Assembly (NCBI GenBank): GCA_017506865.1
Contig: JAFCMP010000090.1
Span: forward strand, 558,001-622,000
Source of the DNA: Tribonema minus
Taxonomy: Eukaryota; Sar; Xanthophyceae; Tribonematales; Tribonemataceae
Direction of reading: 5' to 3'
DNA length: 64,000 bases
Below the pieces are notes generated by a model. That model had not been told where the DNA came from. It was given only the letters and a program-made list of their open reading frames with translations, and did no database searches. Shown here piece by piece: positions 1 through 59,225 of the stretch; position 1 is the stretch's first letter, and every line of letters starts with the position of its first letter. A program made the translations under genes and the position numbers.

Positions 1-2
1 CT

Positions 3-5892: not shown

Positions 5893-8800
5893 ATGCGCAG
5901 TCATACATGTGCACGCGTTGCTCGCGTTGCTCGCAGCGCATGTCACTTTCAAACAATTGTTCAAAATTACATGGAAGACCTCCCTCTTCATCGGTTCGCA
6001 AGCCCATCCTCGCGCAAGTCACATCCTCCTGACGCGCAAATGCAACCCGCAGTGCCGCTGTCAGGCGCGGCGCCGCGCGTGCCCCCCCCCCTGTCGCGCG
6101 CCCAGGGCGCAGCAGGCTCCACCCCCGCCGCGCCGCCGCAAGGCGCCGCATCAGCGGCAGGCGCCAGCGCCAGCGGCGGCGGCGGCGGCAGCACCGGCCG
6201 CCTCCTATTACTGGCAACGGGGATCACCGGAACCGCCATATTCGTCGGTTACGCCAAGGTCCCCGCATTCAAATCGCTGTTGACGGAGCGGGGCATTGAC
6301 ATGCCGGAGCCCGTGCACGGCCTCTACCGCAAGCTCGGCTGGGAGGGCGGCGCGACTGCCGCGGGCGCTGATGCCCCTGCCGCCGCCGCCGCTGCGCCGC
6401 CGCCAAAGCGCGCCGCCGCCCCCGCGCCACCCGCTCCTGCTCCCGCACCCGGCAGCAGCAGCGGCAGCAGCGCTCAGGTCCAGGTGGCGCGCCGCCACAC
6501 CGCCAAGCAGGCCGACACGGCCGGCGGCGGCGGCGCTGCGCCCGCTGCCGCGCGGCGGGCGCCGCCGCCGATCACGAGCCCGGAGCCCGCGCCCCCGGCG
6601 CCGCTTGCCGCCGTGAAGCTGCCCATGTCGAGCGGCGACGTTGCCGAGGTGCTGCACAAGTCTGCGGACCCGTCGAAGGCAGCTGCGGGTGGGGGGGAGG
6701 CGGGGGGTGGCGGCGGCGGGGGGGGCGCACGGGAGGAGGCGGCGGCTGCGCCGGCGGCGGCGGCGGCGGATGCGCGCAGCCCTGCAGCACAGGAGGTGAG
6801 CACGCCGCTCGTGATGCGCGCTCCCACAGCAACGCACTTGCGGATGCACCCATCGTGTTGTGTTGTGTTGCGCGGCGGCTGCGAGGGCGGCAAATGTGCA
6901 GCGTCTGCGTAATGCGCATTGCGCAGCGCACGCACCCCACACATGCCACTGTCCATGCATGAAGGCGGCTGCCACTACTTGTGTCTTGGCCAGCGGTGGT
7001 GGCTCAGCACGGCAGTGCTGGCAGGGGAGCGGCCGCAGCGGCAGTTGCAGAGAGGCAGCACGGGCGGCACAGACAACGGCGGGAGCTCAATTGAGCAGTG
7101 CTTTCATGCACCGCGAATCCTCACCGTGGCACGTAAATGCGGGGTCAACTGTTTGCCTGCACTTTCATGTCACTGACTCGGACCGCCAGCGCCGCTGACC
7201 ACCCTGCACCGCATCGCAAAAACCTGACCGTCGCCGCCGGCAGGAGGCGACAGCAGAGCAGCAGCAGCAGCCGCAGCGGCAGCAAGAGCGGCTGCAGGCG
7301 GCGCAGGAGGGCGTATTTGACGCGGGCGCGGCACTGCGGCGCGAGCTCGACGCCAGCGTCCTCGGCGACCTCGACTCGGTCAGTGCGCCACTGCCCCATT
7401 GTGATAATTATATGAAAACGAATCAAAAGATCGTAGAGCTCTAGGTGACAAGGTATGGTTAGCTGCAAGTGCCTTCCACCAATTATGTTGGTAGGTACTG
7501 GCGGGGCTCGGCCTCAAGGTTAGGGTTCGGCGCTGCGGCGCGAGCTCGACGCCAGCATCCTCGCCAACCTCGACTCTGTCAGTCCGCCACCGCCCGATAG
7601 ATGTGTACTTCTGTCGGTAGGTACAGCCGGTGCTCGGTGACCACGACTCGGTGCGTCTGCCACTGCCCGATTGTGATGTACTTCTAGCAGTTGGTGTTGC
7701 CGGTACTCGGGGACCATGGCTCCGTCCGCCGCCGCCGCCGTGCCTGCAGCGTGTGGCTCCGGCGATGCGGTCCACCGTCGATGTCTCGCCGCGTTGCGGA
7801 CGTACGTAGCTGGCGTGCAGAGGCGCGCCTGGGAGGGCATGTAGGTATCCTACCTAGGGGACTGTGAGCTTCTCCGCAGGGCAGAGGCATGCGTGACGGC
7901 ACGCGGCAGCAGCGGGCGGCGCGCACAGCTGACGAAGCACGCCGCCGCCGCGCTGCCGCGGCGGTCGATGCGACGCACGCGTGCCTCTGACAGAGCGCGC
8001 CTCTGCTGTTGCGCAGCTCTCAAGGCAAATGGCCGCAGGCGGCGCTCCCAGCTGCAGCTCGCCTCTGTCGCACATGAGTGTTCTGTGCAAACACCTTCAA
8101 CTCAGGTATCTCCACTCATACATCGCATTCCAAGACCGCCAGTCGCACAGGCGCACACCGGCCTACGCAGCTCGGCGCACTGTCGCGTGCGCACGCTCGC
8201 GCGCACGCTATCTTCGCGCATCTCTCGTGCCTACGTGTTGTTTGAGTGCGCCTGCGAGGCATGCATGGAAGTCTTTGCGTAAACTACAGCGCCGCGGGCC
8301 GCGCGTGCTGCAGTGCGGCAGCGGAGGAGCTTGTGCCTCCATGTACTTCAAGTTTGAAGTAATGGGAGTTCCGCGCCGTCTGCGTGTGGTGCGCTGCCCA
8401 GCTGGACGCGACGGCGCTGCGCTACCGCCTCGTGCAGCTCGCGGCAGAGGTGCAGGACAGTGTGCGCCTACACATTTGCATACGCTGCACATTCTTGAAA
8501 CTGCACTTGAAGCTGCGAAGTATGGATATCATGAATGAATTCCGCGCTGTGCGCTGCAGCTGGACGCAACGGCGCTGCGCTACCGGCTCGTGCGGCTCGT
8601 GCAGCTCGCGGCGGAGATGCAGGACCGCGCGCGCCAATGTACCTCAAATACGTGCTGCGCTGCGCGCTTTCCGCCCTTTACTTGAAGTTGCACGACGCAC
8701 AGTACGAATGACATCCGTGCTGTCCGTGCGCTGTGCGCGCCGCAGCTGGACACGACGGCGCTGCGCTACCGGCTCGTGCAGCTCGCGGCGGAGATGCAGG

Positions 8801-11800
8801 ACCGCACCAAGTGGGAGGCGCTGCGGCTGCAGCAGAGCCTCAGGGCCGCCGAAGAGGAGGTGAGCAGATTATCAACCTTCCCCACCCACCTGCTGTGCGT
8901 GGGTACGAGATGAGACGGACTTGATGTTTGTCAACTTCAAGACGCAGTTTTCAGCTTGCACGACGCTCACCTGACATACTGGCTGTGCGCGCTCTCGCAG
9001 CAACCACCCGCAAGCCGTCCGGCGCTACCTGAGCCTGCTGTGCGTGGTGACGACGCATTTGTTTTTCTGTCAACTTCAAGTTGAAGCTCTCAGCTTGCAC
9101 CACGCTTGCCTGACATACTCTCGCCGCCGCGGCTGCCCGCAGGCCGGCCGGCACTACCTGAGCCTGCTCTCGCAGCAGGAGGTGGAGGCGGCGGAGAAGC
9201 TCAAGACGGAGCTTCTTGCACAGGAGGCGCGCGTGAGGGACACGATACACGAGGAGTTTGAACAAAAGCTGCAGGAGGCGAGTGCAACCTGGCGTTTGAA
9301 ACGGCGCGCGATAAGTGCGAGTGCAACCTGATATTTGAAACGACGCGCGATGTGCGCGAACGCAGCGGCAGGAGTAGCGCGGATCCGCGCCGTTTACGCT
9401 AACATTCGTCAGTGGACAGGGGAAGGGGGTGGGCGGGGGGGCACGCTGGGGGGAGCTGCGCATGACTCTGACTCAAGAGTCTGAGCCTACTTAGCGCGAC
9501 ATTGACCGTACCGTGAAAGCAGCATGCGCACGTGCCGTCGTCAACACTTGTAGGTGCCGCGGCTCGCAAACTCTGTGGCGCACAAGCATCTCACTGTGCC
9601 CTTTTGCGCCGCCGCCGCCGCCGCATCGTGCGTCCTCCCCCTCCGCGCGCAGCTGCTGGGCCAGCAGGCGCGGTCGTACGACGACGCCGTGCGCGCGCAG
9701 ATGCGCGCGCAGGAGACGGAGCTCGCCGCCAAGTACAGGTGCGTCGTGCGTTGCAGTTGAGGTTGAAGTTGAAGTCGGAGATGAAGCTGCCAAGTACACG
9801 GTTTGCCGCGCAATTGCAGTTGAAGTTGAATTTGAAGTTGGTACAGGTGCGTCGCACATCTGCAGTTGAAGTTGGATACGGAGCTCGCCGCCAAGTGCAG
9901 GTGCGTCGCGCGTTGCATTTTCAGTTGAAGTTGAAGTTGGATGGTCGCACACGTCGGCACCTGCTCTGACCCTACTGTAGTCTCTGCTGCTGGTAGTGCG
10001 CTTCGCCTTGGGTCACGCGCTGTGAAACGTGTGAGGTGTATACACGCTTGGCGTTGCTTCAGCGCCGTGCTGCCGCGGTCGCCGCGCGAGACGAGAGCGC
10101 GCGCCAGCTGCCGCACAGTCGACACACGCGCTCAGCACGCGGAGGCCAGCGGAGACACTCTTTGTGTTGGTGAACTACTGTCGTACTTGAAGTATCTACT
10201 TTTGTACTTGAAGTATTTCCACAAAGTACACCTACTACGGTGCGTTGCGAGCTGGCGCGGCGCGGTCAGCGCAAAGCTCTCCTGCTGCCACTGGCTCCGC
10301 TGCGCGACCGTGCAGCACCGTCAGGCGTGACGGCGCCAACGACGGCGCGTGGCACACACGCCAGGCACCGCCTGTGACGCCCTGCAGACATCGCGCCCCG
10401 CTGCTGCCAGCGCGCAGGGCGGACGGCGCGCCGCTGGCAGGCATCTGCTGCGGCAGCGCGCAGGTACAGACCGTCTGCTGCCGCACAACGGCAGAGGTTG
10501 GCCTGGCGCGCCTTGCGGTGTGCCGCTGGCAGAGGTCTCGAGCGCCCGCGTCGTGCCCCGCAGTGAGCGCGTGCCTGATGCCTGGTAGTGCCTGGATTCT
10601 CAGTATCTGCCTGACATTGATGGGCGTGTTTGCAGTCATGCCCTGATGAAACGATTGTGACAATGAACACAAGCGTGGTGGTGACAGCAGCGCTGTGTCC
10701 CCCTCCCCCTCCCCCCCCCCCCCCCCGCCGCCCTGCGCATCATGTCCTGTAGCGAGCAGCTTCAGACGGAGCTGTCGGCGCTGCGGCGCGGCGCTGCGCA
10801 CGACGCGGAGGAGCGGCAGGCGGCGCTGGCCGACATGCGCGTGCAGGTTAAGGTGAGACATGCAACGCCGCTGTCGTAAAATGCAGAGCGCGATTCGCAG
10901 GCGCTGTTTCACATCCAGAGGGCCATGCGCGAAGGGCTTCTGCGTGCGCGCCGCCGGGAGGAAGGGGGATGTACGGGGGGAGGGGGAGATGGGGGGTATT
11001 GTCGGAGTGGTTCTGTGGCGCGGCGGCGGTCGGATGCGTGCGCAGATTGGTTGAGGTGCGCAGCGCACCTGCGCTGCTAGTCAGTGGCGCTAAAAAAAAA
11101 CGAGAGGTGGCGTGTGCAGATGCCGCACGGACCGTCGCACGACGGCACACAGCGCGCCGCTGCGCTCGCGAGCACCGCAGTGACGCGTGCGCCGCCGCGC
11201 CGCTTGCGCGGGACCAGCAGGAGGTGCCGCCTGCGGCAAGCGCGGGATGACAGGGCACCACCCTGACTTCAACCGTAACCCTAAGCTGAAGGCAGTGGAG
11301 CGCAGGTAGGGGCGCAACCGCTGGGCGCGTCATGTCGCGCTACGGCGCGTTGGCCATGGTGTGCTTTTGCACCTCGTTGCAAAACGCACGCTGCCGCGTC
11401 GGTTCTCGTGGAGGCGCTGGCTGCGGCCCTGAGGGATCGTAAGGAGAGCCAGGGCGAGGCAGCGCTCTACCCCTCACATCCGCAAAGGTGGCAGCTTGTT
11501 TCTGCAGCGACGCTGCACGGTCGCGTGAAGACGAGCTGCGCGCAGTCCGTCCATTGCCCCGTGCGCGCATCCACAACTCGCGTGAGCGCTAGGTGGGCGC
11601 TTCACCGCGCCCGCAGCACAAAAATTGTCGCGCGCACTACTGAGCGCCACGAGGTTTTCCGAACCCAGCACGAATTCGGTCACGCGCCCTTGCGCGCCCG
11701 GTGTTTCCCAACCCCCCTTCCCCTCCTCACGCCGCGCAGGCCATCGAGTTGGCGTGGCGCGCCGTTGGCGACCCCGAGCGCGACAGCGCCGCCGTGCACC

Positions 11801-14512: not shown

Positions 14513-16478
14513 TCATGGGCCCAACTTCATGCGCGTCTTCTCCAGTATGAACTTGCCCTCCTTGTACTTCTGGCTCTCCTCGAAGGCGCGCTCGTAGCGC
14601 CAGCCGACCAGGCTCTGGCAGTCCACGCAGTAGATGTCCGCGACGGTGTGCATGCCTGCGGGGGGCGCGCGGCGCGCGAGAGAGGCGCATTGGTTAGGAG
14701 ACTGATCTGCGGAGCGCTGCGGCGTCATCAAGGTCATGGCAGGGGAGCGTGGAGTATGTACTTTTATTATATTCCACTTGTGGCTGTGGAAATGCCATGT
14801 TGTAGGTGTGTCGCCTTGTTCTCACTCTTGCATGTAGCATGCAAAGCTTGCACGCCACACCCCGCCCCCCACATCACCCCCAACAAAGCACCCGCAAGCG
14901 ACTGTCCCCCACATACTAGCAGGGATACCAAACAAAGCTACAAGACTCTCCCCCCACAGACAGACCCGTCTTAGGGCCACCCAGCTCCACGCAGACTCCA
15001 TCTCAAAGTTTTCATGCAGGCCAAGGTCACCATAATGGGCCCTGAACTAGAGATTGTGGCTATCTACGTGAACCCCGATATCATAAAGATAAGCAGAGGG
15101 AGTCACTGGGCGCCAGGCGCTGACGCTAGAAAGAAAGGCTATATCACTAAGCAAAGCATTGCCTCCTTGATGAGCAGGACGGTGGTTCACCGGCCCCCCC
15201 CTATCACCCCCAACAAAGCATCCGCAAGCGACTGTCCCCCACACACTAGCAGGGATACCAAACAAAGCTGCAAGACTCTCCCCCCACAGACAGACCCTTC
15301 TAAGGGCCACCCAGCTCCACGCAGACTCCATCTCAAAGTTTTCATGCAGGCCAAGGTCACCATGATGGGCCCTGAACTGGAGATTGTGGCTATCTAAGTG
15401 AACCCCGATATCATAGAGATAAGCAGAGGGAGTCACTGGGCGCCAGGCGCTGACGCTAGAGAGAAAGGCTACATAACTAAGTAAAGCATCGCCTCCTTGA
15501 TGAGCGAGGTCACGGCTCACCGCAGGCTGCAAGCCTGACAAGATATTGCCATATACCGCTGCGAGTAACTTGTGGTTGGTGCCGTGGCGTGCAGCCGACT
15601 CCGCTTGCTCTCCAAGCACGCCAAGCCGCTGCCTGTCCCTCCTCCGCACGCCAGCCAGGGCTTCCGAGACACCACCACAAGTTTGAAGTTCTCTCGAAGG
15701 AGCTACGCACACTGGCATCACCTGAGGGCCGCTGGTGCTAGCTCCTGCAAGCCCTGCAGCCCAGCCCACCCACCAAACCAGCCGCATTCGCTGCCATGCC
15801 TCTCGGCGTTAACGAGCATGCATGTACTTTTTATGTACATGTCTGCGTGGTGAGCTCGTATGTAAACGAGGTGAGCACGCCCCCTGCGAGAGTGCCTGGC
15901 CCGCGAATTTGGGCTTGTCCGCAGAGACACTGTCACGGGCAGTGTGCGGCAGAATAAGGAGCATAGGCATTGCTCTGCGGCCGGCTTTGTGTGATGTGCA
16001 CAATGCCTGGCTGCCATAGCAGCGGGCGTTGAGACCAACGCAACGAAGTTTTGAGGCCTGCAAGGGCCCGCTTGGACGAGCGGAAATCGTGCATGGCGAA
16101 CTGACATTCTGCCGATTGTCTCTGATATGCGCCAACAGTTTGAGCATATGTATGCTGATGATGAAAGGCAAGGCCCTTCCTAAGATGATCCTGCTCCTAG
16201 GATGCCAATTGTCTTTTGATGAAGCAACTGAAACTCATGATTAAGATAAGTGAGCTGCTCTCGGTTCCTAGATAATCGCCAAACTCACCAGTGATCAGCA
16301 TGCGCTTTTCCAGAGGCCCTTGAGTCACGTTGACAGCCTGATTGAACAGGAACGCTCTCCCCCCTCTGCCGTGGAAGTTCTCGCTGATGATGTCCTGCTT
16401 GGTGGTGAAGTGGGTACCACACTCCAGGCATGAGTAGATCTGCGGGCCCTCCAGGTATCGCTTGAATATACGACCCAT
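14513..16478 (-). CDS. Yippee-like zinc-binding protein (two exons, complete)
   Basis: Exon 1 is 16478-16289 (ATG at 16478; donor ACTG|GTGAGT). Exon 2 is 14655-14513 (acceptor CCCCGCAG, stop TGA at 14515-14513). The joint is phase 1 and gives about 110 residues, the normal Yippee size. Hallmarks are an N-terminal MGRIF, the first zinc pair YSCLECGTH, the [18 protein letters not shown] block, the joint [13 protein letters not shown], the second pair [24 protein letters not shown] and a basic tail. Yippee proteins bind one zinc through two Cys-x2-Cys pairs; in animals and fungi they associate with the GID/CTLH ubiquitin ligase or with nuclear structures. The role here is unknown. The 1.6-kb intron holds a 330-bp tandem duplication of foreign-looking sequence. 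Confidence 0.9.
14873..15504 (+). repeat. 330-bp direct tandem duplication inside the Yippee intron, retroelement-like
   Basis: Bases 14873-15174 and 15203-15504 are nearly identical with a period of 330. Each copy reads on the plus strand as a short frame with [20 protein letters not shown] followed by NPD. This resembles the beta strands of the apurinic endonuclease of LINE elements (strand, YI-N/P-D turn). One copy has a stop in place of Tyr (TAC to TAA). The duplication is directly visible; the endonuclease reading is weak and rests on one short block. Confidence 0.55.
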
Positions 16479-16983: not shown

Positions 16984-19900
16984 ATGCTGCAGCGAGCTCT
17001 TTCCCATGGACTCAGGGCGCGCACCGCCCTGCGGCCCACCGCGGCGAGGCAGCAGCTGCAGCAGCAGTCTCCATGGATCACTCGCACGGCCCCCGCCCGG
17101 CGGATCCGCTTCTCCACAGAGACCCCGGAGGCCGCCGCCGCCGCCACCATACTCCAGTCCAAGCCCTACGGCGACATCACCGTGGGCGTCCCTAAGGAGA
17201 CCATGAGGCTGGAGAAGAGGGTGGGGCAGACCCCGCAGACGGTCAAGAAGCTGACGGCGGTGGGGGTGAAGGTGCGCGTGGAGGCAGGGGCGGGGGCGGC
17301 GTGCGACTTCGCGGACGAGCAGTACAGGGCCGCCGGCGCCGCGATCGTGAGCGCCGCGGAGGTGTGGAAGTCGGACCTCGTGATCAAGGTGAGCCAGGGC
17401 GCGCAAGGCGTGGTGGAGATGACAGTTTCAGATGAGACAGCGCGCGCGCGTGTGCTGAACTTGAGGGGTTGCAGTGGTACGGCGAGGGCTAGTGCAGAGG
17501 TTTGCAAGTCGGATTTCGTGGTAAGATGAGCCAGGGCGCGTGCTGCGATTCAGGATTGCAGTGGTGAGGCGCAGGCTAGCGCGGAGTTTTAAAAGTCGGA
17601 TCTCGTGATCAAGGCGAGACAGGGTGCGCGCGTGTGCCGAATGTCAGGATTGCGGTGGTGCGGCGCAGGCTTGCGTGTGAGGCGGGTCTGCGGCAGCGCT
17701 GATGATGAGGTGTTGTGCTGTAGGAGGCGTCACGGCACCTTGCTGCTGAGCAGCGCTGCAACAGCGCGCGGCGATACCGCAGCGCTGCTGCGCAGTCACG
17801 CTCCAACGTGCACGGAATAGCTGCTGCATGTTGAATGCGCAGGGCGCGTTACGCGGCATCATGTACGTCCACATGCTGCTCCATAGAAGCGTATTATTGC
17901 AATGCCACTGTCTTGAGCAAGGCTGCAAGTTGGCAGATACCCGGCAGAATTTAAACATTTGGCCGTCACACGCTGCAACTTTATGGACCACAACAACCTA
18001 TGCGCAAGGCATGGTGGAGATGACATTTTCAGATTGCCAAAACTTCATTTTCTTGCAGTTTGCTCGTAACGCGCTAGACTGGTGCCACATGGCAGGTGCA
18101 TCAGCAGCAACGTACTACTACCTACAACAGCCATTAACATGTACAAGGCGCCACAAGACGCATGCGCGCTATGATACTTGCAGCACTTGTGCCTCATGTA
18201 CCAGTAGCACAGGGCAATGAGATGCCAGAGCCTGTATTATAGAGTGCAGTTCGCATAAAAGTACCTACACCGGAGTTCACACGAGTCTGGGCAACATCAG
18301 CGGTGTGCTGAGCGCTGCACGTGCGGACGCCCGCATCTGAGTTGTCGAATCGAGAGACCATGTATGTCATCACAGATCGCCGCTTTGAAGTTCCAACGGG
18401 CCTGGGTAACATCACAGCTTGAACCATTTCTGATAACGTGAAACGCGTTGCGGCGGTAATGCGGTGCTGAGCGCTGCAGGTGCGGGCGCCCACGAAGGAG
18501 GAGGCGGCCAAGCTGGAGAACAGGGCGCTGCTGAGCCTGTTCTGGCCCGCGCAAAACAAGGAGCTGCTCGACCTGGTGAGCGCCGTATTGTGGTAATATG
18601 TTGACCATTGTTTCCAGTTACACAGTGAAGTAGACAGTGGTACAGGTGACTGGAACTACATGATCAATGTGTACACTTAAAGGTATGCATGTTCTGGCCC
18701 GCGCAGAACAGGGAGGTGCTCGACGTGGTGAGCGCCGCCCTGTGGTGATATGTTGACCATCATTCCTTTGACGCCGTTCCGTTGCATTGAAGTATGCGGT
18801 GGTACATGTGATCTTGAACTTCATGATCACTGTGTGCACTTTAAGGTATGCCTGTTCTGGCCGGCGCATGCAGCACATACCTTTCGTGTGTATGCATGTA
18901 ATGTACGCAAGGTGATCGTCATCTCCAATCATTCGCTGCAGCATCATCATCAAGATCATCGCCACCACGACCATAGCGCGCGCTGGCCCTTACCATGTCG
19001 CCATTGCGCCTGTAGAGAGCGCGGCGCGCTGCACGTATAGAGTGTATGGACGTATTCGTATTCATACTCATGTACTTCGAAGTATGTTCATATTGCATGT
19101 ACGCGCATCTTAAGTCATACGATATGTATTGTACATGTTCATATTCATGATCATGTATATTCATGTTCATGTATGCGCAGCTCAAAACGCATGGTATGTT
19201 ATGTACGTGTTTATAGTCATAGTCAGTATACTCATATCTGACGGATGCGCAGCTCAAGGTGCATGGTTCGTATGTACATTGCGTTATTCATTTTCATTTT
19301 CATACTCATGTATATTCACCTTTCATGTATGCGCAGCTCAAGGCGAGGAAGGTGCATGGTACACATGTACATCAAAGTATACATTTCCATTTTTCGTACT
19401 CATCTACATTCCTATTCTCATGTATGCGCAGCTCAAGGCGCAGGGGGCCACGGTGCTGGCGCTGGACTGCCTGCCGCGCACGCTGTCAAGGGGGCAGGCG
19501 TTCGACGTCCTGTCATCGCAGGTGAATCTTCAACATACAGCTGTCACTGACTTGAAGTGCTTTGTCTGAGCGTGGTGGCGTATTGTCTCACCAATGAAGC
19601 TGGTGACGCGCCATCCTCAATTGTCAACATTGGAACAGTTGGCATAGGCGTTTGACGTCCTGTCATTGCTGGTGATTCAGAGCAGTTGGTCCTGATATGT
19701 CAAGTGTCTTGTCTGAGCGTGGGACGGGCATTCTGCCAGACTGAAGCAGGTGACGCACCAGCAAGACTTCAGCAGCAGTGAAGTAGGTGAGGCTCATGAC
19801 CTCAGCGTAGATGATGCACAGCAGCAGGTCTAATTGGGAGTGCTTCATGTGAGCTTGTTGAAGCTCTTACCTCCAGAGTGAAGTCAACAGCGCTCCGAAC

Positions 19901-22900
19901 GCGAGTCGTTGTCTTTCAGAGTGATCGAACGGGCTGCTGATCAGAAGCGCACGCACTCGTGTTGACCTGGGATCATCCGCGTTGAGAGTACACGTTGCAA
20001 CCTACATGGACCCGGCGTGTTCTCGAGCCCTGGCGCTTGTCGGACGCATTTGCCGTGGAGCGCTGCTACCGTGCGCTCTCTGACCCTGTCCCTCACCTGA
20101 CGCTTCTCGGGCCAACATTGCGGGCTACAGGGCGGTGCTGGAGGCGGCGCACGCCTCTGACAGGTTCTTACGACCTTGTGATCAGAGGCGTGCGCTGTTC
20201 ATGTCATCTGTCATCCTCGCGACCGCGGGTGCAGTTCAACAACAGCTGAATGGACTACCTTAAGTCCTCATTGTGGGGACCGCTGCTGCCGCGTGCCCTC
20301 TGACGCTGCCCCTGACCTGCCTCTTCTCAGGCCAACATTACGGGCTACAGGGCGGTGCTCGAGGCGGCGCACGCCTTCGACAGGTTCTTTGCGGGGCAGA
20401 CGACGGCGGCGGGGCGCGTGCCGCCGGCGCGCGTCCTCGTGCTCGGCGGCGGCGTCGCGGGGCTCGCCGCCATACAGGTGTGTCAGTGCTCAGCGTCGCT
20501 GTATTTAATTCCATCATATGTTGCGCAGGTCCCTTCTGTGCTCATAGCAAAATTGTGGGGCTCGCCTCCCGCGGGGGCGCGTCACGACCTAGGGTTAGGG
20601 TAAGGATTGGGGTCGGGGTGCTGATTGTCGGCGGCGGCGGCGGCGCGGGGCTCGCCGCCATCCAGGTGTGCATCAGTGCTCAGCAGCGTCTACCTTGCAG
20701 TAACATATGTATATACCCACATGCGTGTCGCCCGCGCGCGTGCTCGTTCTCGGCGGCGGCGGCGCGGGGCCCGCCGCCATACAGGTGCGTCAGTGCTCAG
20801 CGGCATTGTCATTCCGTCATACAATGCGCCCCCTGCGGAGACCGCGCTTTGCGGTCTGTCGTGGCGGCATCGCGGGGCTCGCCGCCTGCCGTCCAGGTCA
20901 GGGGCGTGTCTCGGCATCCAGGAGTGCATCAGTGCTCAGCAGCGTCCACCTTGCAGTGACATGCGTACACACCTGCATGCATGCATGCCGCGCGCGTGCG
21001 CTCGCGCTCGGCGGTGGTGTGGCGGGGCTCGCCGCCAGACGTACAGGTGCACATGGCGGTCAGCGGAAGTGTCAATCAGTCACATGCCTGCGCTGTTCAG
21101 ACCGCGCCCAGTCGATCAGTCTCATGTGCTGACCTGCTAGAGAAGGCTCGCCACGTGCGTGTCCTTGTGCTCAGCGGCGGCGTGTAGGGGCTCGGACTTC
21201 GCTGCATGTGCTGCAGCACAGGCCATGCAGCATTCTGAAGCGCTCGATAACGCGCCGTTGATGTACCATTACTCCGGTGCAGCGTTAGGAATGTGTAGTC
21301 GCTTCTGGCGCTGGCCCCTTGTGCTTGCGCTTGCCGTCGCGTTTCCTCATATGCAGTGTGCGAGCCAGCATGGGCTGTCATGAATGCGCCGATGCGACTC
21401 GCATTTAAGCAGTCTTACCCTCACCCGCTGCTGCCCTGGTAATAAGGGTCGTAATGAATGCGCCGGCGCGCCACGGATTCATGCAGTCTTACCTGAATCC
21501 GCCGCTGGTAGCCATGTGTAATGGAAGTGAGTACAGCTGCACGGCACCTCGAGTTATGGTTGGGTGTGGTTCAGAGTTAGTTGCGGCCCTCACGCATGCT
21601 GACGTTGCTGCGGTGGCGCTTCCCTGCAGGCGGCGCGGGGCATGGGGGCGGTGGTGAAGGCCTTCGACGTGCGCGCCGCAGTCAAGGAGCAGGTGAGGCG
21701 ACCATGCATTGTCTCATGAATTCATTGTTTCGTGCATGAATTTAGTGTTTGATGCATGAATTCATTCTTTCATTCATAAAAATAATGGATCCGTGCGTGC
21801 ATGCATGGATCGGAGCGCGAATGTGTTTAGCCCTGCGTATTCGTTGTCTCATGAACTCCATGCGCAATGCATGAATTCATGAATTGTGCACGCTTGCATG
21901 GATCGGAGCGTGAACGTGCCGCGCGCGCCGCACGTCGACTTCCGGTGAGTACTTGCGCCAGCGGACTCCCCGATGGAGCATGACCCGGCTTTAGCCACTT
22001 CCCGCGCTGACCCCCCGTTCCTCCACGCTTGCGCACATCGCGCCGTCTGGACCCACATCGTGGCCCGTCTCGCTGTATCGCGCTTGCAGCGGGCCCCGCA
22101 ATGGAGTCTGACCTGGCTGAGTCTCTTTTCGCCCTCACCAGTCGTGCGCCCGTGCCTCCCCACTCTCTCATCATCACCGTCTCGGCCCACTCCGTGGCCC
22201 TACTCATTGTATCGCGCTTGCCAACGCCGCCGCCGCTGCGCAGGTGCAATCGCTCGGCGGGGAGTTCCTTGAAGTGTCAACGGGGGAGGAGGGGTCCGGC
22301 GCCGGCGGCTACGCCAAGGAGATGAGCAAAGAGTGGTTTGACGCCGCTGCAAAGGTTCTGGCAAGAGAGGTATGGGCGGGTGGCGTATTGATGCCAATTG
22401 AACGGAGCGCACATCTACATGAAGTCCCATTCGCACACAACTGTACTTTTGTTTATTCTCGCTTAGGGCGCGACAGAGCGCGGATGATTGATGTAAGGAG
22501 TGGTTCGCCGCCAGGGTGCTGGCGCAAGAGGTGTGGATGGACCGCATTGTCATGGCCGCTGGGTACTTGGCGCGGCGCTCATGTGCACGCGGTCGCGACG
22601 TGTCGTACTTTTGTAGCGTTCCCGCGCGCAGGTGTAGTGTAGACGTGACAGAGTTTGATGCTGTACGCTGGCGCCTGGATTGACGCCGCCGCCAAGGTTC
22701 TGGCGAGAGAGGTACGGGCGGGCGGTGTATCGATACCAATCGAACGGAGCGCACATTTACACTGAGTCCCATTCCGCGCGTCTAAATCGATCCCACTACA
22801 CAAATGTACTTTTGTTTATTCTCGCTTAGGGCGCGACAGAGCGCGGATGATTGATGTAAGGAGTGGTTCGCCGCCAGGGTGCTGGCGCAAGAGGTGTGGA

Positions 22901-25900
22901 TGGACCGCATTGTCATGGCCGCTGGGTACTTGGCGCGGCGCTCATGTGCACGCGGTCGCGACGTGTCGTACTTTTGTAGCGTTCCCGCGCGCAGGTGTAG
23001 TGTAGACGTGACAGAGTTTGATGCTGTACGCTGGCGCCTGGATTGACGCCGCCGCCAAGGTTCTGGCGAGAGAGGTACGGGCGGGCGGTGTATCGATACC
23101 AATCGAACGGAGCGCACATGTGCACTGAGTCCCATTCCGCGCGTCTGAATCGATCCCACTACACAAATGTACTTTTGTTTATTCTCGCTTAGGGCGCGAC
23201 GAAGCGCAAAAGATTGATGTAAGGAGTGGTTCGCCGCCGCCGCCGTCAGGGTGCTGGCTCGAGAGGGCGGTGTATTGATGCCAATTTGATGGCTGCCTCG
23301 ATCCGTGGCGGTGCGCACGTGCACATTGTGGTGCCATTCTGCGAGTCCGTTTCGTCCCTACTCGAGTGAACCTTTGGCTACTCTCGAAGTGCGCGACAAA
23401 GCTCAGATGATTGATGTCCCCTGTGATGAAACGTCTCCGTGCGACGCCGCCGCCAGGGTGCTGGCACGAGAGCTGCGGATGGACGGCGTTTTCGTGGCCG
23501 CTCGATCAATGGGGGGGGCGATGGTGTGCGCACGGTCGCGACGTTCCGTACTTTCGTAGCGTTCCCGCGCGCGCGTGTAGTGTAGACATGACAGAGTTCG
23601 ATGCTGTCCGTTGGCGCCTGGATCCGTCGCGGGACGCTGCTATGAATACACAGAGTCTCGGTCCGCGCTTGTGTTTCATGCAAGTGTAGCTCAGCGGTGA
23701 CGCAGTTCCATGCTGTACAGCTCTGCGGGGAGTACACCTGCGGGGAGCACACTCGCACAGCGACAAGTCATGGACGCAAGTCACAATTCGTTTCATCGCT
23801 CACTTCGTGGGGCGGCACAGGCGTGAACCCGTATACTCCGACGAGAAGTCCATGTGCACCCCGCCTCAAGTACACACGTACTCTGCGGTGAGCTCCTGCA
23901 CTCCGCGGGGCATGCATCTGCACCCTGCCCCCAAGTGCACGTACTCTGCAGCGAGCCAAGTGCACCCTGCGCGAGTACACGTGTACTCTGCTTGCACTTT
24001 GCGGGGGTGCATGAGCATCCTGCCCCAGTTACACTGTACTCAACAGAGTCCAATCCGCAGTTTCGTCGCCGCTCACCATCCAATCTCTCGGTCCATGTAC
24101 TCGTAAGGTGCGTGATGGCGCAGCCTAAGCGCCCCAGGTGCGCGCTCTGCAGAGAGCTGTCCTGCTCATCCGATCTCTCGTTCCACATCCTCATGTAACG
24201 CTCGATGGCGCAGGTGAAGGACATGGACATCATCATTGCTACAGCGCTCATCCCCGGGAAGCCCGCGCCGCGCCTCATCACGGCGGAGATGGTGGCCACC
24301 ATGAAGCCCGGCAGCGTAACGGTGAGCAGTTACAGGCGGTTACGCGCAACCTTGACGGCAATCTCTCTAGCAGGACAAAAGCGGTTGGTTGCAGAAGCTG
24401 TGTTGGCGATGAGAGGAGCGCGTGCTGTTCAGAAGGCACAGAGGAGATGGTGGCCACCACGGAGCCCGGCAGCGTCACAGTCAGCTGACATGCGCGGTCA
24501 GGGATCGGGTTAGGATTAGGGACAGCGGTAGGTGAGCGGACTTAGGGTGAGGCACATCGACATTGCGTGCCCCTTGTCCACTTCCCTTTTGCGCCAATGG
24601 TATGCACCCATTCTTTGCGTGGCGCAGGTCGACCCGGCAGTGAAGTCGCGGCAACACCGGCACGACGCGCGCGGACGAAGCGCACCGCGCCGTGCATGTA
24701 TTTGCTGCAGTTCGGTCGAGTCGTATCGCACCGCGCCTGCATGCGCTTCAATCTGCAGATATCATTACCAGCCCTCGTCTGGCTTTCCCCTTCCGGGACG
24801 GCGCGCTCCCTCTGCCGCATGCCGCGGGTCGATTTTGCGGCGGAGTCGGGCGGCAACATAGTCACGGCTCGCGCCGACGAGGCGAACCGCACTAGCGCTC
24901 TTGTACTTCAACTTGAAGTTCTCATTTGTTTTTCACAATCACCTTCTTGTTGATGGTGCCATCCTTGCCCCTGTTCCTGAGCGGCGCAGGTTGACCTCGC
25001 AGCAGAGTCGGGCGGCAACAGTGGCACGACGCGCGCCGACGAGGCATACCACACCACGCGTGTCGTAACTTCAGCGCGAGGCTATGATGCATGCCCCCCC
25101 CCCTCTTCTCACCTCCCCCCTTGGTCTGTGCCCCCTTCGCTGAGCGCTGCAGGTTGATCTTGCGGCGGAGTCGGGCGGCAACATCGGCACGATGCGCGCG
25201 GACGAAGCGTAGCGCACCCCAATTACTTCCGCCTTAAGTTCCATGTTACGTGCCCCTTTTCAAATTCCCGCTCTCAGCGCCGGTGCCCCCCCTTTGCCAC
25301 TTGCCGCAGGTTGATCTCGCTGCAGAGTCGGGCGGCAACATTGGCACCACGCGCGCAGACGAGGCGTACCGCACCGCCAACGGCGTGTTCTGCATCGGCT
25401 ACACGGACATGGCGAGCCGCCTCGCAGCGACCGCATCTACGCTATTTGCCAACAACACGAGCAAGTTCTTCCTCAGCATGGGGCCCATCACCACAAAGGA
25501 CCAGACCAAGTGGCAGGCAAGGGTTGTGAGCATTGACTTGGCGGAAGCTATCACTGTGGCAGGGTAGGGCTTAGAGGCGCTGACTTGACGACAGCTGCTG
25601 TTTCGTACGCGTTCAAGGCATTGCTATGTGTCACAGCACACAGCTTGAGACAGCGGACATGGACAGAGCCATGCTCTGTGGCACTCCAGCGCCTACAGCA
25701 ATTGAACGCGCTCTCCACTCTGCAACGGCGTGTTATCTCAGATCAGATTTAGCAAGCAGTACTTACCAAGCACCGCGGCGCAGTAGGATGCTCGTTGTGG
25801 ATTTGATGCGGAAGCGCAGCAGCACTGTACCAGGCACGGTGGACTGCAAAGAAGTGATCGATACCAACGCGCTGGCACCATGTTCCAAGCAACAAGCAAT

Positions 25901-28900
25901 CATTTGGGGCAATTGCAACAGTGCTTTTGAGGGTCAGGGTTTTTTGTTTGCATAAGCGAGATGCGTTGATGGCTCAGAGTCAGCCACCGACTATCGTATT
26001 GCGCACACTCGCTAGCCAGGTAGGTGTCCAGACCAACCGGTAGGCAAGGATTCGGGCCATGCGGACTTTAGTGTTGTGTAGTATTAAAGATGTGTGCGCT
26101 AGAGAGGGTGCTTTGGTGACTCAGACTCGCCCGCTGAGTGAGTTTTATCTTGCACACGCTCTCCGCCGCATGCGCTGAGCGCTGCCGCAGTCGAGCGCTG
26201 CTATTACACTTCAAACCTGCGACGAGCGGGCATTCGGGTTCAGGTCCGGGGGTCTTGGCATTGCCTGTCAAGGGCGGTGATTATGTGGCAATCTCACGGC
26301 CAGGCTACAAGTCGAGATCACGCCGTGCAGCGAAGCTCAGCGCACGGCAAGGGGACGGGGGGACCCTCGCGCAAGCCGCCCCCACCGCATTGCCAGTCGC
26401 CGCCGTGTGCAAGTCGTGGCAGCAACTCAGGAGGAAGACTATTTACAAGATTTCAGAAAGAAACATTCAGTTCCCGACCTGACTGCACTACATGCCCCCC
26501 CTCCTCCATACACCCCCTTGTCCCGGTCACCTTGCCAATCCCTGGCGGGTATGTTGATGCAGAACCCCCTCCCCCCTGCATTTGCTGACACACTCAGTGC
26601 CCCGTGCCCTGCTCTTGCTTCAGTTGGACACGGCAGACGAGGCCGTCAAGGGCTGTCTGGTGCTTGACAGGGGGAACCTACGCTGGCCGCCCCCTCCCCC
26701 CCCCGCCCTCAAGGTCGCCGCCCCTGCTGCCGCGGCGGCAAAGGAGGTGCCCACAGTGGAGGCGGTGGTCGTGGACTACGAGCAGGTGACCCTTGCTGCA
26801 GCTCACTGCATTGCAGTACAGTACAGTTCACTAGGTGTACTCGCAGCGACTGAACGCTGCGGTCGCCGCGGTCTACGAGCAGGGCTGTGCTGCAGAACAC
26901 TGCACTGTGAAGCAGTGCAGTTCACTGGTTGTACTTGCAGCGACTGTACTATGCGGTTGCCGTGGACTACGAGCAGGTGAGCCGTGCTGCAGTTCAGTGC
27001 ACTCTGGTACAGTGCAGTTCACCGCTTGTACTCGCAGCATCTGAAATGTGTGATCGCCGTAGACTACGAGCAGGTGAGCCGTGCTGCAGTCAACTGGCAG
27101 CACTGCTCTGTGATACAGTGCAGTTCGCCTATTGTACCAGTAGCGCTCGCAGTCGTTGTGCAGTTGTTGTGGACCAGCAGCATGCGAGGCGTGCTGCAGT
27201 ACACTGGCAGCAGTTCACTGCCGCACACTGCAGTTCGCTGCTCTCATCTGCAGCGACTAAAGTGTACAGTCATTGACTCATTATGAACCGAGGCAACGAA
27301 GCAGTCCCGGCTGTCCCACCGCGCATGCCGGTGGTCCAATCGCAGCGCGCGGCGCGAGTTTCATCGGCTCATCCAGCAGCACACTGCATCATCGCACGGA
27401 ACGCGCATCATGGCAGCACCCGTGCAGCGCGAACCTGCGCTTCGCCACCCCCCCGCTCCCCTCCCCTTCAACACAGTGAATGCCCGTCCCCCGCCCTTAC
27501 CGCAATCCTTGCGCAAGTGCCCGGGCATGTGACTGCGCGCCGCTCACTCCCTCACCCCCCAAACTCTGCGCATACAGGAGTTCAAGAAGCGCGCGGTGCG
27601 GCTGTCGGCGGGCAGCGGCGCGCTGGTGCTGCTGGGCATGGCGTCGCCGAACGCGCCCTTCAGCTCCATGGTCACCACATTCGCGCTCTCGGGGCTCGTC
27701 GGCGTGCAGGTAACGCAAACACGGCGGCAGCGCTCAGCGTCCAGCGGGGGTGCAGCTCTCAGGCATTGTTGACGGGGTTGATCTTTGCAGCAGGCCCGGA
27801 ATAGCGAGCGGCTGTTCGCCGTCACGCGCACTGAGAGCTGCAGTGCCACCTGAGGCAGCGGTAGAGAGGGTGCAGCTCGTGCATGGCCAGCCTGGGATAC
27901 CGCCATCTACAGATCTGTTGCTGCCATCGGGTAGCGGTGCCCTCGTTGCGAATGTTGTGACACTGAGTCAGAGTTCCAGTTGATGCAGTCCCACCGCTGT
28001 GACCCCATGACTGTGGTTTGCAGGGGCAGCCTTACTGCAGTCCTCCCAATACTGCTGCTTCAGCACTGCTCACTTTTCCCCCCGCATCGGCTCCATGGGG
28101 TCGCGCTACCGCCCTCTGCCTCCCCCCCTCGCCACCCCCCCCTCCCCCCCCTCTCCCCGCCCGCCCAACGCACACGCCAACGCATCCCTCCCCCCCCCTC
28201 CCCCCCCGCCCCCCACCCCCCCCCGGGGTGGTCAAAGGAGTGACGCACTCGCTGCACTCGCCCCTCATGGCGGTCACCAACGCCATCTCGGGGCTCACCC
28301 CCCCCCTGCGCCTATGCCCCCCCCCTTTTCCCCGCCCCGGCTGACGCACACACCAACGCAGGGGGGGTAGGGGGGGTTACGCACTCGCTGCACTCGCCCC
28401 TCATGGCGGTCACCAACGCCGTCTCCGGGCTCACCCCCCCCTGCGCCAATGCCCCCCCCCCTGTCCCGGCCAGGCTGACAAGCATGCCAACGCATTCACC
28501 CTCCCCCTTCCTCCCCCCCCTCCGGCCCCCACAGGTGGTCAAGGGGGTGACGCACTCGCTGCACTCGCCCCTCATGGCCGTCACCAACGCCATCTCGGGG
28601 CTCACCGCTGTGGGCGGCCTGTACCTGCTAGGCCCCGGGCTGTACCCCACCAACGCCGCGCAGGCGCTCGGCGCGGGGGCAGTGCTCATCTCCACGGTAA
28701 CCCGACATACCTACCCTAAGCGGCACTGTTGCGTCTTGTCTCAGAAAATGCCAGTTTCATACGGTAGTGCGACAGACGTATGCCGATTGTGACAGCTCCT
28801 GGGTCCCCCGCTTACCGGTCACCTCAAATTGCATGCTCGCGGTTCATCTGAGCAGCCTTCTGACGCCCAACCTCAACCCCTAACTTCAACCATGAAGAGC

Positions 28901-40288: not shown

Positions 40289-40322
<34 letters not shown>

Positions 40323-44257: not shown

Positions 44258-44316
<59 letters not shown>

Positions 44317-55496: not shown

Positions 55497-55511
55497 GGGC
55501 GGCAGCCAGTC

Positions 55512-56986: not shown

Positions 56987-57019
<33 letters not shown>

Positions 57020-59225
57020 CGGCGGCGGCGGCGCGCAAGCGCTGCGGCGCGTGCGTTGCGCCGGCGCCGGCGACGTGGACGGGCAGGTACGCGCCACCCC
57101 CACTGCCGCTGGATGCTGTGAGAGTGTGCACTGATGCCAGTGCAGGTGACGCCTGTGGAGTGACGCGGCGGCTTGGCCAAGATCATTTGGATCCTTTGGC
57201 GCTTCCCATATTTGACCTTGCAGACGCAGCGGCGCAGAACCACGGACCCCCCCCCCCCCCCCCCCCTGCCGCGGCTGCACGGCCCTCTCGCATCATTGCA
57301 TGCAGAGTGTTGAGCAACACTGCCGCCGACGTCACGCAGCTGCGGTGGCGCGTGCTATTCACAGCAAGCTGTTGAACTTGGCATTCTCTAGCCTGTGCTG
57401 CGCTGCCGCCACTGCTGCCGCCGCCGCTGCCGCCGCTGCGGAGCTGAAGTGACGCGGTCTACAGTAGGTGCGTAAATTAAGCAACTGAACCCCGCGCCCC
57501 CCGTGTGACGCCGCGCTGCCGCTGCTGCCACCGCGCAGCTGAGGCGGCGCGCGCTACCTACAGCACAATACGCCACTGAAATGTGCATCCCCTGTCCTGC
57601 AATGCGCTGCCGCCGCCGCCGCTGTCCCTGCCGCCGCCGCTGCGCAGCTGAAGTGGCGCGCGCCGCGCAAGGACGTCGCTGCCGACGGCTGCCGCGCAAC
57701 TATGTACGTGCTGAACGCGGTGGCCGTTGCGGACGCGTCCGTCACGCGCGACCTGAAGCACTTCAACATGGCCTGCGCGCAGTTTTGCCGCCTCCTGGAC
57801 GTGCCGATCAAGCAGGTCTTGCGGGTGCGTAACCGACGGCGGCGGCGGTTTCGCCTTCGGGCGATTTCGCGCTTGACGCACGCACGGCGCTGCCTGTCGT
57901 GCAGTGCGGCAGTGCCTCAAGGAATTGTAGTACTGTGGAACCTCGTCGAGACCTTGAAGTCCTTCAAAGCATGCCAAGTCGGCCATGCCGACAGTGGCTC
58001 ATTGTGGTGGCACTGCTGTCATGAAGGGCCCGCATCGTGCGTGGCATGTCGCTGCTGCGCATGCAGGTTGGTGTCTCCGCGAGCGAGCGTTGGCAGCGCT
58101 GCTGCGCGAGACCAACCTGTAAAGTTGAAGTTTGCTGCGCGTATGTCATGCTGGTGGCGCCAGCCGCTACACACACGGCTGCTGCGCACCAGACCAATGC
58201 AATGGCAACACTGATGTTAACTTCTACACCAGGTGATCGACGCTCAAGCGGTCCCCCATCGGCACCCCCCCCCCGCCGCCGCGCACACGCAGGTGGACGT
58301 CTACGAGAGCGAGACCACGCGCCGGCGCTACGCGGCCGCGCGCGAGAGCCTGGCCTTCGACGGCGTCGACACCACCGAGTCGTGGGTGTTCCACGGAACG
58401 GCGCGCGAGAACGTTCCCAAGATCATGTGCGCGGGGTTCCGCGTCGGCGGCGTGGGGGAGGGGAGCGTCGCTATCAAGAACGGCGCCACCTACGGCAATG
58501 GCGTGTACGCCGCCACCGGCCCAGGTAATCATGGTGAACCTGGTACACATGTGCGCCCTTGCGCGGTCGCCAGCCGGTTACACGACTACAAAATCTCATC
58601 GACTTGATGAGGTCGCGTAGTGGAAGTTGGGGTGCAGCGGCTCCAAGAAGGTCGCAGTCACAACGCACTGTCCCAAGCCGCGCTGACTGCCTCAACTTTA
58701 CTTCTTCAGCAGTAGAAGTAGGTCTACTGTACCTCAGCCCCGTTTCAGGCACCGCTGTTTTACAGACGCGCAGCGGCGCCTGTGACCTACAGCGCGCAGG
58801 ACGGCAACCCAGCATACTCATACACCTACACCCATACTCATCTACCTCATGCACCCACTTTCCCCTGCGCGCCTCCCCATCTGCGCGCGCGCCGCAGCGA
58901 CGCCCATTACCTACAGCGCGCGCGAGGGCGGCCGCTCCGTGATCCTCGCGCAGCGCGCGTACCCATACCTACATACCTATACTCATCTACCTCATACACC
59001 TGCTGCCTCACACACCCACTCGCCGCAGCGACGCCCATCGCATACAGCGCCCGCAACGGTAGTCGCTCCGTCATCCTCGCGCGCGCGCTGCGCGGCCGCG
59101 TCGGCGCGTGCCCCGGCGAGGGCGACTCGTGGCCCGCCAAGCTCGACTGGTGGGTCTTCGCGGACAGCGCCCAGCTCCTGCCCGTCTACGTCGTGCACTT
59201 TGTGCCGGCGGCGACGGGCGCGTGA
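56223..59225 (+). CDS. WWE-domain PARP-like mono-ADP-ribosyltransferase
   Basis: Exons: about 56277-57086 (donor CAG|GTACGC), 57648-57815, 58293-58524 (phase-1 donor CCAG|GTAATC) and 59029-59225 (stop TGA); the joints around 58 kb may miss a small exon. After an Ala/Ser-rich region the first exon has a WWE domain (IWEWDTGGGAFEAYDAKTSA ... RVVFSHRGARRVADLALLVQ), which in known proteins binds iso-ADP-ribose, then a polyglycine run. The last two exons form a PARP catalytic domain: WVFHGTARENVPKIMCAGF, YGNGVYAA, YSARNGSRSVILARALRG and LLPVYVVHF. The NAD-binding His (FHGT) and Tyr (VYAA) are present. The usual catalytic Glu before the last strand is Val (LPVY against LNEY in PARP1), as in mono-ADP-ribosylating or inactive members. 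WWE plus PARP recalls animal PARP11-14 and plant SRO proteins. It may be one gene with the exons from 53215. Exon-edge echoes occur in two introns. Confidence 0.8.
56925..57035 (+). repeat. (GGC/GGG)n polyglycine-coding tract
   Basis: About 110 bases of GGCGGC/GGGGGC repeats inside the WWE exon encode about 35 glycines with a few alanines. The tract separates the WWE domain from ALRRVRCAGAG. It is probably length-variable between strains and prone to assembly error. Confidence 0.9.
57300..57570 (+). repeat. Three copies of the PARP-gene exon 57648 acceptor and start
   Basis: CGCAGCTGAAGTGGCGCGCG (real at 57643) is echoed as ACGCAGCTGCGGTGGCGCGT (57335), TGCGGAGCTGAAGTGACGCG (57436) and GCGCAGCTGAGGCGGCGCGC (57533). 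Each lies behind a CTGCCGCCG-rich tract and is followed by (C)TAC(A)CAGCA-type intron sequence. Copies lie about 100 bases apart. Confidence 0.85.
58755..58965 (+). repeat. Two copies of the last PARP exon acceptor and start
   Basis: CGCAGCGACGCCCATTACCT then ACAGCGCGCGCGAGGGCGGC...CTCCGTGATCCTCGCGC at 58893-58955 is a near-intact copy of the final exon start (59023-59090). An older one (GCAGCGGCGCCTGTGACCTA-CAGCGCGCAGGACGGCAAC) is at 58771-58810. Each is followed by CCATACCTACA...CATCTACCTCAT. The nearer copy is open in frame and has an intact acceptor, so it could be mis-spliced or used as an alternative. Confidence 0.9.

Follow-up and report, generated by a model that had tools for sequence, protein, structure and literature searches.

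Recurrent tandem duplication across splice junctions as a probable source of intron lengthening in Tribonema minus

Among 164 splice junctions sampled in 82 introns of 17 Tribonema minus genes, one of them the NNT gene described below, 63 are accompanied in the adjoining intron by copies of the exon edge, here called echoes. They were first noticed in the window, i.e., the whole stretch of 64,000 nucleotides analysed here out of a 158 Mb genome; the phenomenon is real and extends past it. The best reading, which we consider likely, is that recurrent tandem duplications across single splice sites are tolerated and lengthen introns. Tandem duplications, mostly of about 75–240 bp, would recur in multi-exon genes. 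Where a unit spans one splice junction, the copy on the exon body would be spliced as previously, while the second copy, with its edge of the exon, its splice site and its stretch of adjoining intron, would turn into intron. As splicing appears to keep the exon-attached border, the extra copies would have become intron, and because the copy joined to the exon body would still be spliced as before, the protein would be unaltered. Through repeated rounds one echo would become an array, the intron gaining one unit per round. The earlier note on this DNA had proposed such serial duplication with exon-proximal splicing; duplication and intron growth are supported, whereas the choice of splice site is only apparent, from protein conservation.

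The best-defined case in the window is the gene for nicotinamide nucleotide transhydrogenase (NNT), located by spliced alignment of protein P0001 (an NNT named Tribonema minus). The gene model has 1092 residues and 0 mismatches to P0001. Self-BLAST of the region gave the echoes listed below the gene.

16984..39954, plus strand: NNT, 23 coding exons and 22 introns (20 of phase 0)
17494..17629, plus strand: two donor-side echoes of the exon 1 end (17388)
18305..18332, plus strand: short acceptor-side echo of the exon 2 start (18480)
18687..18868, plus strand: donor-side echo of the exon 2 end (18575), 152-bp shift
19061..19345, plus strand: array entering the exon 3 start (19432), 77-bp shift
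19646..19760, plus strand: donor-side echo of the exon 3 end (19521)
20057..20169, plus strand: acceptor-side echo of the exon 4 start (20331), 59 exon nt, 87% identical
20632..20829, plus strand: two donor-side echoes of the exon 4 end (20477)
22676..23266, plus strand: donor-side echoes of the exon 6 end (22369), overlapping a young 363-bp tandem array at 22435-23238
24437..24485, plus strand: donor-side echo of the exon 7 end (24321)
24620..25222, plus strand: four acceptor-side echoes of the exon 8 start (25310), nearest copy aligned
26859..27238, plus strand: donor-side array of the exon 9 end (26785), 97-bp unit
28122..28435, plus strand: acceptor-side echoes of the exon 11 start (28535)
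29929..30151, plus strand: acceptor-side echo of the exon 13 start (30343)
30649..30744, plus strand: donor-side echo of the exon 13 end (30534)
32865..33192, plus strand: donor-side echoes of the exon 16 end (32815)
33695..34082, plus strand: three donor-side echoes of the exon 17 end (33539)
35508..35858, plus strand: three donor-side echoes of the exon 19 end (35433), unit of ~122-128 bp
37781..37860, plus strand: acceptor-side echo of the exon 21 start (37971)

In all, 18 of the 44 NNT junctions, 11 of them donors and 7 acceptors, are echoed in the intron next to them; echoes in NNT had been claimed in the earlier note. Within 16000-41500 there were 59 direct matches, 58 of them less than 1 kb apart, and 0 inverted repeats. 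An exon is touched by 35 of the 59; the remainder are intron-intron matches, many between copies within one array. Copies diverge by roughly 5-31%, and a 443-base echo array, the single array so searched, matches only itself genome-wide. Shuffled NNT DNA gave 0 repeat matches, and chance similarity was therefore ruled out. When a related NNT, P0002 (whose label begins 'Vauche' and has an MMETSP number), was aligned with the protein, only 10 gap columns were found in 981, and there is therefore no insertion of echo length. Conservation of the protein thus suggests that splicing uses the exon-attached site.

Exon-edge copies were likewise found in the genes for MIC60 and a PARP-like protein, in agreement with the initial observation. 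Here the exon edges were placed by eye from coding potential and splice sites, with no verified protein behind them.

7528..7677, plus strand: MIC60, donor-side echoes of a putative donor at ~7379 (7329-7399 repeated at 7528-7598)
8370..8628, plus strand: MIC60, two acceptor-side echoes (8370-8458 and 8549-8628) of a putative exon start at ~8746
9874..9941, plus strand: MIC60, donor-side echo of a putative exon end at ~9738 (9712-9779 repeated)
58812..58958, plus strand: PARP-like gene, acceptor-side echo of a putative exon start at ~59029 (matches 58957-59088)

The claim was not confirmed for the WW-domain gene, which lies on the minus strand with a WW-like segment read at 40798-40932. Its region (40.3-53.0 kb) holds four direct matches; two are local, with shifts of 59 and 87 bp, and neither of these lies on a coding-like segment.

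Outside the window, 20 further gene loci (160.7 kb in total) were picked from Pfam lists for matches spread across several exons, and the sample is therefore tilted toward intron-rich genes. They contain 267 direct repeats versus 3 inverted ones, which together with the result for NNT excludes an origin by inverted repetition; these counts are non-independent wherever a single array yields several matches. Exon-touching copies are present at 16 of the 20 loci, on many contigs. The cover of local repeats varies between loci from 0 to 45%, and L030, L039 and L045 have no local repeats whatever. Of six control stretches of 8 kb at arbitrary places on large contigs, three are covered to 29-43% by local direct repeats. 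At L032 the overlap rule put a Pfam match (model 57-103) among the echoes, yet judging from its peptide it is more likely a true exon, and the adjacent intron was excluded from the counts.

Introns with echoes are the longer ones: their median is 926 nt (n=38), compared with 519 nt (n=28) for introns without (p=1e-5). This comparison uses 66 introns with both ends placed, a score of at least 5 and a model mismatch of at most 5 residues, i.e., 44 of 53 placed introns plus the 22 from NNT; L035, L039, L044 and L045 contributed none. In the same set echoes correlate strongly with length (rho 0.57), weakly with exon GC (rho 0.32) and not with intron GC (rho 0.11). Echo introns are still longer when the extra copies are subtracted (667 versus 510.5 nt), and long introns may therefore also just be hit, or detected, more often. 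A pair of Cpn60 paralogs, L034 and L037, also bears on growth. They have six introns in common, at identical GroEL positions and in identical phases, which measure 141/357/479/772/302/524 nt in L034 (total 2,575) and 343/2382/897/1131/865/823 nt in L037 (total 6,441); a further intron at GroEL 436 is found in L037 only. At the common introns 1 of 12 junctions is echoed in L034 and 7 of 12 in L037, and the detectable extra copies amount to 103 nt in L034 versus 2,715 nt in L037, to be set against a length gap of 3,866 nt between the paralogs. At 357 echo sites where the paralog exons differ (25 repeat pairs pooled), the echo agrees with its own exon at 296, with the paralog at 32 and with neither at 29. 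As echoes mostly match their own gene, most of them are younger than the paralog split, while the common introns are older; L037 has thus gained units after the split, in support of the earlier view of echoes as a form of intron growth. A MIC60 locus on C224 was considered as a second paralog pair and dropped, its alignment being too poor for use.

The geometry of the echoes was followed at 56 fully bounded exons. The side rule claimed at the outset holds for all 101 matches between exon and intron: the 59 downstream partners all derive from the 3' half of the exon and the 42 upstream partners all from its 5' half. The copies had also been said always to include the splice site, which is true of the 96 matches that cross the junction but not of the remaining five. 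At these 56 exons neither a unit spanning an entire exon nor a duplicate of a whole exon was seen. Any tandem duplication across one junction gives a fixed side, and leaves the exon-joined copy alone in phase, so these two properties are in themselves no evidence for a special process. The intron part of the unit was examined at 46 of 49 echoed junctions, those with at least 15 exon nt; for the nearest echo it matched in tandem register with z>3 at 31 and with z of 2-3 at 8, while 7 gave no such homology (z<2). The shift to the nearest echo is 75-342 bp plus one of 710 at the 63 junctions, rather than the 95-363 bp first proposed, and 60 of the 63 units are 75-234 bp long.

It is conceivable that junctions are themselves the target, breaks or template switches favouring them through e.g., R-loops, splicing-coupled damage or nucleosome placement. 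We regard this as a serious possibility, although we would not bet on it. In its favour, at 60 of 63 junctions the exon breakpoint of the nearest echo is no more than 80 nt from the splice site, which differs from uniform placement (KS p=6e-9), and shifts peak at 140-160 bp. Arrays were also sought with intron sequence as the sole input (minimum match 30 nt, low-complexity filter on) in the 82-intron set, in which the introns of L034, L036 and L037 were swapped for GroEL-guided models; of the 67 arrays obtained, 51 run on into the exon, as do 20 of the 21 that are at least 85% identical. A first analytic null, which expected 12.5 of 51 arrays to enter exons, was dropped as too low when simulations through the identical pipeline gave fractions of 0.31-0.72, and the claim is therefore limited to the excess above simulations. 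Over 52 runs the maximum was 0.72 overall and 0.85 for the arrays at least 85% identical. The reach of the real arrays exceeds every run and is a modest hint of a special process, but the simulations were hand-set and unfitted, yielding 101-121 clusters against the 67 real ones. Simulations begun with introns of 150 nt and little decay approach the real fractions (0.65-0.72 overall, 0.74-0.83 for young arrays), so that short ancestral introns would account for much of the excess; we infer that part of it arose because introns were short when first hit. An additional junction-centred bias remains. The shallow exon breakpoints depart more clearly from random placement than the array reach does, but selection against deep copies of exons could also produce them, and no breakpoint motif was seen by eye in the sequences listed. 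It is tempting to speculate about a junction-centred process in which units of about nucleosome length, with an exon breakpoint within ~80 nt, are copied in tandem repeatedly, so that splicing geometry itself would drive intron length; this fuller version we find somewhat more doubtful still.

Another reading is that selection keeps the echoes for a function, whether as alternative ends of exons, as decoys or as regulators of splicing, which we consider improbable. The decoy sites are often preserved in the echo alignments (GT in 43 of 52, AG in 36 of 43), and changes private to echoes show an excess at third codon positions: 64, 53 and 92 changes at the first, second and third position (of 1050, 1054 and 1055). 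This unevenness could reflect copying at different times or weak constraint. Gap openings are few in exon parts (27 in 4,522 sites, versus 240 in 8,786 sites of intron parts), a rate under half that of the intron parts and less than drift in the echo alone predicts. The first and second positions are nevertheless hit far more often than in the exon lineage, where the corresponding changes number 3, 2 and 17 (of 375, 375 and 374), consistent with exons that stay constrained and echoes that drift. By reading of the alignment, one echo of NNT exon 8 contains an in-frame stop. The disparity in echoed junctions between L034 and L037 at common introns also argues against a function. How tolerated decoys are kept silent may be explained by exon definition, as exons are short (median left-hand exon 142.5 nt in the 66 introns, some ends being set by a Pfam match) and introns long (median 753 nt in the 82 introns).

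A third possibility, very improbable in our view, is the Rogers model, in which an intron is gained from a tandem-duplicated exonic AGGT segment and echoes would be relics of intron birth. The mutational class is the same and is documented in other species (PMC3443670, PMC4974935). The model however predicts an intron that opens with copied downstream exon and closes with copied upstream exon, and the observed arrangement, with every match on its own exon's side and nearly all crossing the junction, is the wrong one, on which ground the model was set aside. The echoes carry their own exon's splice site, mostly with flanking intron, and the intron therefore existed before the echo, as the relative ages in Cpn60 also suggest. 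An assembly artefact or collapsed haplotypes can hardly be credited and were rejected, since the copies are diverged with separate histories, occur at many loci and on many contigs, follow a strict side rule and vanish when the DNA is shuffled.

Intron lengthening is usually credited to transposons and small insertions. The frequency of self-copies at the sampled junctions points to an alternative route to long introns, one by which introns in the Cpn60 pair more than doubled, largely via echo copies, and by which growth becomes traceable event by event. The many intact decoys adjoining functional sites also provide natural test cases for how the spliceosome tells the correct site from near-identical ones beside it.

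Intronic minisatellites and internal exon duplication also give head-to-tail arrays in introns, but here the last unit of an array reaches over the edge of the exon, and among the 56 exons examined none was duplicated whole. The earlier note knew of no standard name. This holds for the genome-wide form, of which no description was found among titles and abstract openings, with few subscription journals covered; a single boundary-crossing duplication has, on the other hand, been published. In the potato RdRp gene (Ma, Lan and Niu, 2016, PMC4974935) a tandem duplication across an intron-exon boundary led to intron gain; lying on the acceptor side, it copied the 3' splice site along with the branch site and the polypyrimidine tract. 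As in potato, the copies are direct, on the same strand, in tandem register and span one junction. The potato case is however one event that yielded an additional exon fragment and a new intron that is spliced, while in Tribonema serial events appear to lengthen existing introns, at donors and acceptors, in many genes and with the protein unchanged; the six Cpn60 introns are common to both paralogs and most echoes private to one, which is not the pattern of new introns. Similarly, in the AGGT model of tandem genomic duplication (reviewed in PMC3443670) splice sites are supplied by tandem duplication, but the Tribonema unit holds a pre-existing junction with its intron, and the duplicated site is apparently silent. 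Finally, introners, element families copied into many genes by transposon-driven intron gain (PMC9860276, whose main text does not mention 'Tribonema'), resemble the echoes in supplying introns with new sequence across the genome; unlike an introner, each Tribonema echo resembles its own neighbouring exon.

The genome that holds the window comprises 158 Mb in 554 contigs. The genes and segments recognised in the window are listed below; NNT was located with the sequences of E. coli PntA and PntB as guides.

Features of the window
1-1003: left end of the window; few local repeats, and coding-like segments that on reading resemble reverse transcriptase
~6-13 kb: MIC60 gene (coding potential, peptides, Pfam Mitofilin matches)
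~14.5-16.5 kb, minus strand: small gene (coding potential and peptides), with segments that look yippee-like on reading of the peptides
14861-15505: tandem duplicate of a 329-bp unit (94.6% identity), outside NNT and near the small minus-strand gene
16984-39954, plus strand: NNT gene, 23 exons and 22 introns
~40.8-50.3 kb, minus strand: gene with a WW-like segment (coding potential and peptides)
~53.3-59.3 kb: PARP-like gene (coding potential and peptides)
54846-55223: repeats in the long open frame of the PARP region (53799-55493), whose shifts, 123 and 237 bp, are divisible by three; these in-frame duplications of coding sequence are what one would see if exons retained only duplications that keep the frame

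There is a strong phase bias, with phase 0 in 20/22 NNT introns and in 42/53 introns placed in other genes.

Self-comparison of the NNT region gave 59 direct repeats, 58 of them less than 1 kb apart, and no inverted ones. An exon was touched by 35 of the 59, and the remainder were intron-intron pairs, many linking copies within one array. Local direct repeats covered 33% of NNT, compared with 1.5-3.3% of the WW-gene region (12.7 kb) and of the two ends of the window (6 kb on the left, 4.5 kb on the right), and none of shuffled NNT DNA. The earlier note had reported echoes, i.e., decayed tandem copies of an exon edge and its splice site inside the adjoining intron, in MIC60, NNT, the WW-domain gene and the PARP-like gene. 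In NNT at least one copy lies in the adjacent intron at 18 of the 44 junctions (11 donor, 7 acceptor), and the arrangement is the same in MIC60 and the PARP-like gene. For the WW-domain gene the note was not confirmed: no exon-edge echo was found across its 12.7-kb region.

The same note held that exon-start copies always lie upstream of the exon, exon-end copies always downstream, and that a splice site is always included. Both flanking introns are known for 56 exons, of which 35 carry an echo. All 59 downstream partners come from the 3' half of the exon and all 42 upstream partners from the 5' half, and none of them contains the far junction. The fixed side is thus borne out; inclusion of the splice site holds for 56/59 donor-side and 40/42 acceptor-side partners and fails in the remaining few. 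The side rule is the automatic outcome of any tandem duplication that straddles one junction, and a duplicated segment containing the whole exon would change the protein. The rule is therefore evidence for tandem duplication under selection that keeps the protein intact, but not for any more special process. At 46 of 49 junctions the nearest echo was tested for tandem register in the intron part of its unit, which gave z >3 in 31, 2-3 in 8 and <2 in 7. Nearest-echo shifts at 63 junctions were 75-342 bp plus one of 710 bp (60/63 within 75-234 bp); the 166 repeat clusters in 273 kb had their peak shift at 140-160 bp, with quartiles of 112 and 211.

Repeats were also detected from intron sequence alone and then checked for continuation into the exon. 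Clusters reached the exon in 36 of 51 cases in a first set of 66 introns (14/15 at ≥85% identity) and in 51 of 67 in a set of 82 introns (20/21). Random tandem duplication, with whole-exon and whole-intron duplications barred, was simulated and analysed identically; of the 52 runs, 15 used the 82-intron set and 37 the 66-intron set, 8 of these 37 with exon overlap capped at 80 nt. Across all arrays the simulated exon-reaching fraction was 0.31-0.72, and among young arrays it did not rise above 0.85. The real values exceeded every one of the 52 runs, with parameters that were set by hand and 82-intron runs that yielded 101-121 clusters against 67 real ones. Uniform placement does not account for the depth of the exon breakpoints: the nearest echo overlapped the exon by more than 80 nt at 3/63 junctions (p=6e-9 in a KS comparison with the uniform expectation). 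Maximum exon overlap had a 90th percentile of 79 nt, compared with at least 122 nt in 44/44 simulation runs without an imposed limit. The deepest single echoes hold 135 nt of exon. Short introns at the time of the first duplication could account for much of the exon reach, and runs starting with 150-nt introns and little decay gave 0.65-0.72 overall, a few points below the real value. The shallow breakpoints reflect either a junction-centred process or selection against deep exon copies.

Changes were polarised at junctions with two or more echoes. Exon-lineage changes at codon positions 1, 2 and 3 numbered 3, 2 and 17 (of ~375 each) and echo-private changes 64, 53 and 92 (of ~1,050 each); exons are under constraint and echoes take changes at all codon positions. 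Exon changes between copying rounds can account for the excess at third positions in echoes; alternatively, echoes may be under weak constraint. Gap openings numbered 27 in 4,522 sites in the exon parts of echoes and 240 in 8,786 in the intron parts, an exon rate less than half the intron rate. Splice sites were intact in most echo alignments (GT 43/52, AG 36/43). The exon-attached site appears to be the one in use, which is supported at the protein level only: the NNT model that splices these sites matches the protein named NNT of Tribonema minus exactly (0 mismatches, 1092 residues), and a related NNT had 10 gap columns in an alignment of 981 columns, too few for an insertion of echo length. 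The related protein bears a Vaucheria-like partial label and an MMETSP number (MMETSP is a transcriptome project). Short exons between long introns fit exon definition, under which an echo, with its single true splice site, would presumably be passed over by the splicing machinery.

Whole-genome Pfam searches gave 62 matches to Cpn60/TCP1 and 134 to kinesin motors, both including some short duplicate matches adjoining longer exon matches. Twenty loci outside the window (ten per family, 160.7 kb), picked because their Pfam matches spanned several exons, held 267 direct vs 3 inverted repeats; 131 of the 267 pairs, in 16/20 loci, touched an exon. Of the 164 junctions of the 82 introns that could be placed at both ends (NNT included), 36 donors and 27 acceptors were echoed. 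Local direct repeats covered 22% of the 20 loci overall, from 0% (L030, L039, L045) up to 45% (L035); the three loci at 0% are conserved genes without any such repeat, and others in the same genome reach 30-45%. Six 8-kb control stretches at arbitrarily picked positions had a mean cover of 22%, three at 29-43% and the others at 1.8%, 6.9% and 10%. Judged by reading, the three repeat-rich stretches resemble multi-exon genes, and the one with 1.8% cover resembles a retroelement. Counts of coding-like segments (6, 6, 7 in the repeat-rich stretches vs 6, 4, 6 in the others) fail to separate them, and the contrast between intron and intergenic DNA is therefore weakly tested.

Echo-bearing introns have a median length of 926 nt (n=38) vs 519 nt in others (n=28; p=1e-5), and extra copies account for 22% of the 54.9 kb of intron sequence. 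With these subtracted the medians are 667 and 510.5 nt; since the gap persists, long introns may also be struck, or their echoes detected, more often. The clearest evidence for intron growth is a pair of Cpn60 paralogs, L034 and L037, with exons 68-81% identical in DNA and six common introns at identical GroEL positions and phases. These measure 141, 357, 479, 772, 302 and 524 nt in L034 (sum 2,575) and 343, 2,382, 897, 1,131, 865 and 823 nt in L037 (sum 6,441); the first is the least certain, since the first exon on which it depends is 15 nt long and was placed with a GroEL guide, and without this intron the sums are 2,434 vs 6,098 nt. Echoes mark 1/12 of the shared-intron junctions in L034 and 7/12 in L037, and detectable extra copies amount to 103 and 2,715 nt, respectively, against a length difference of 3,866 nt, to which shrinkage in L034 may add. 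A seventh intron of L037 (L037:8203-8847, 645 nt, GroEL position 436) is absent from L034 and is echoed at both junctions. The paralog exons differ at 357 echo sites (25 repeat pairs pooled, with some sites shared between pairs); the L037 echoes agree with L037 at 296 of these, with L034 at 32 and with neither paralog at 29. As they mostly match their own gene, most arose after the paralog split. Intron 5 of L037 (6131-6995) is mostly a donor-side array (L037:6012-6938) with a period of ~165 bp; extra copies make up 760/865 nt of the intron, and the copies hold up to 118 nt of exon 5.

The underlying mutation class is already known. Intron lengthening by serial echoes of splice junctions was described in none of the titles and abstract openings searched, which covered few subscription journals. 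Introns are known to be gained when exonic AGGT segments are duplicated in tandem (PMC3443670), and in one case, in a potato gene, a junction-type tandem duplication created a new intron (PMC4974935). The potato case and the Tribonema minus echoes are alike in mutation class.
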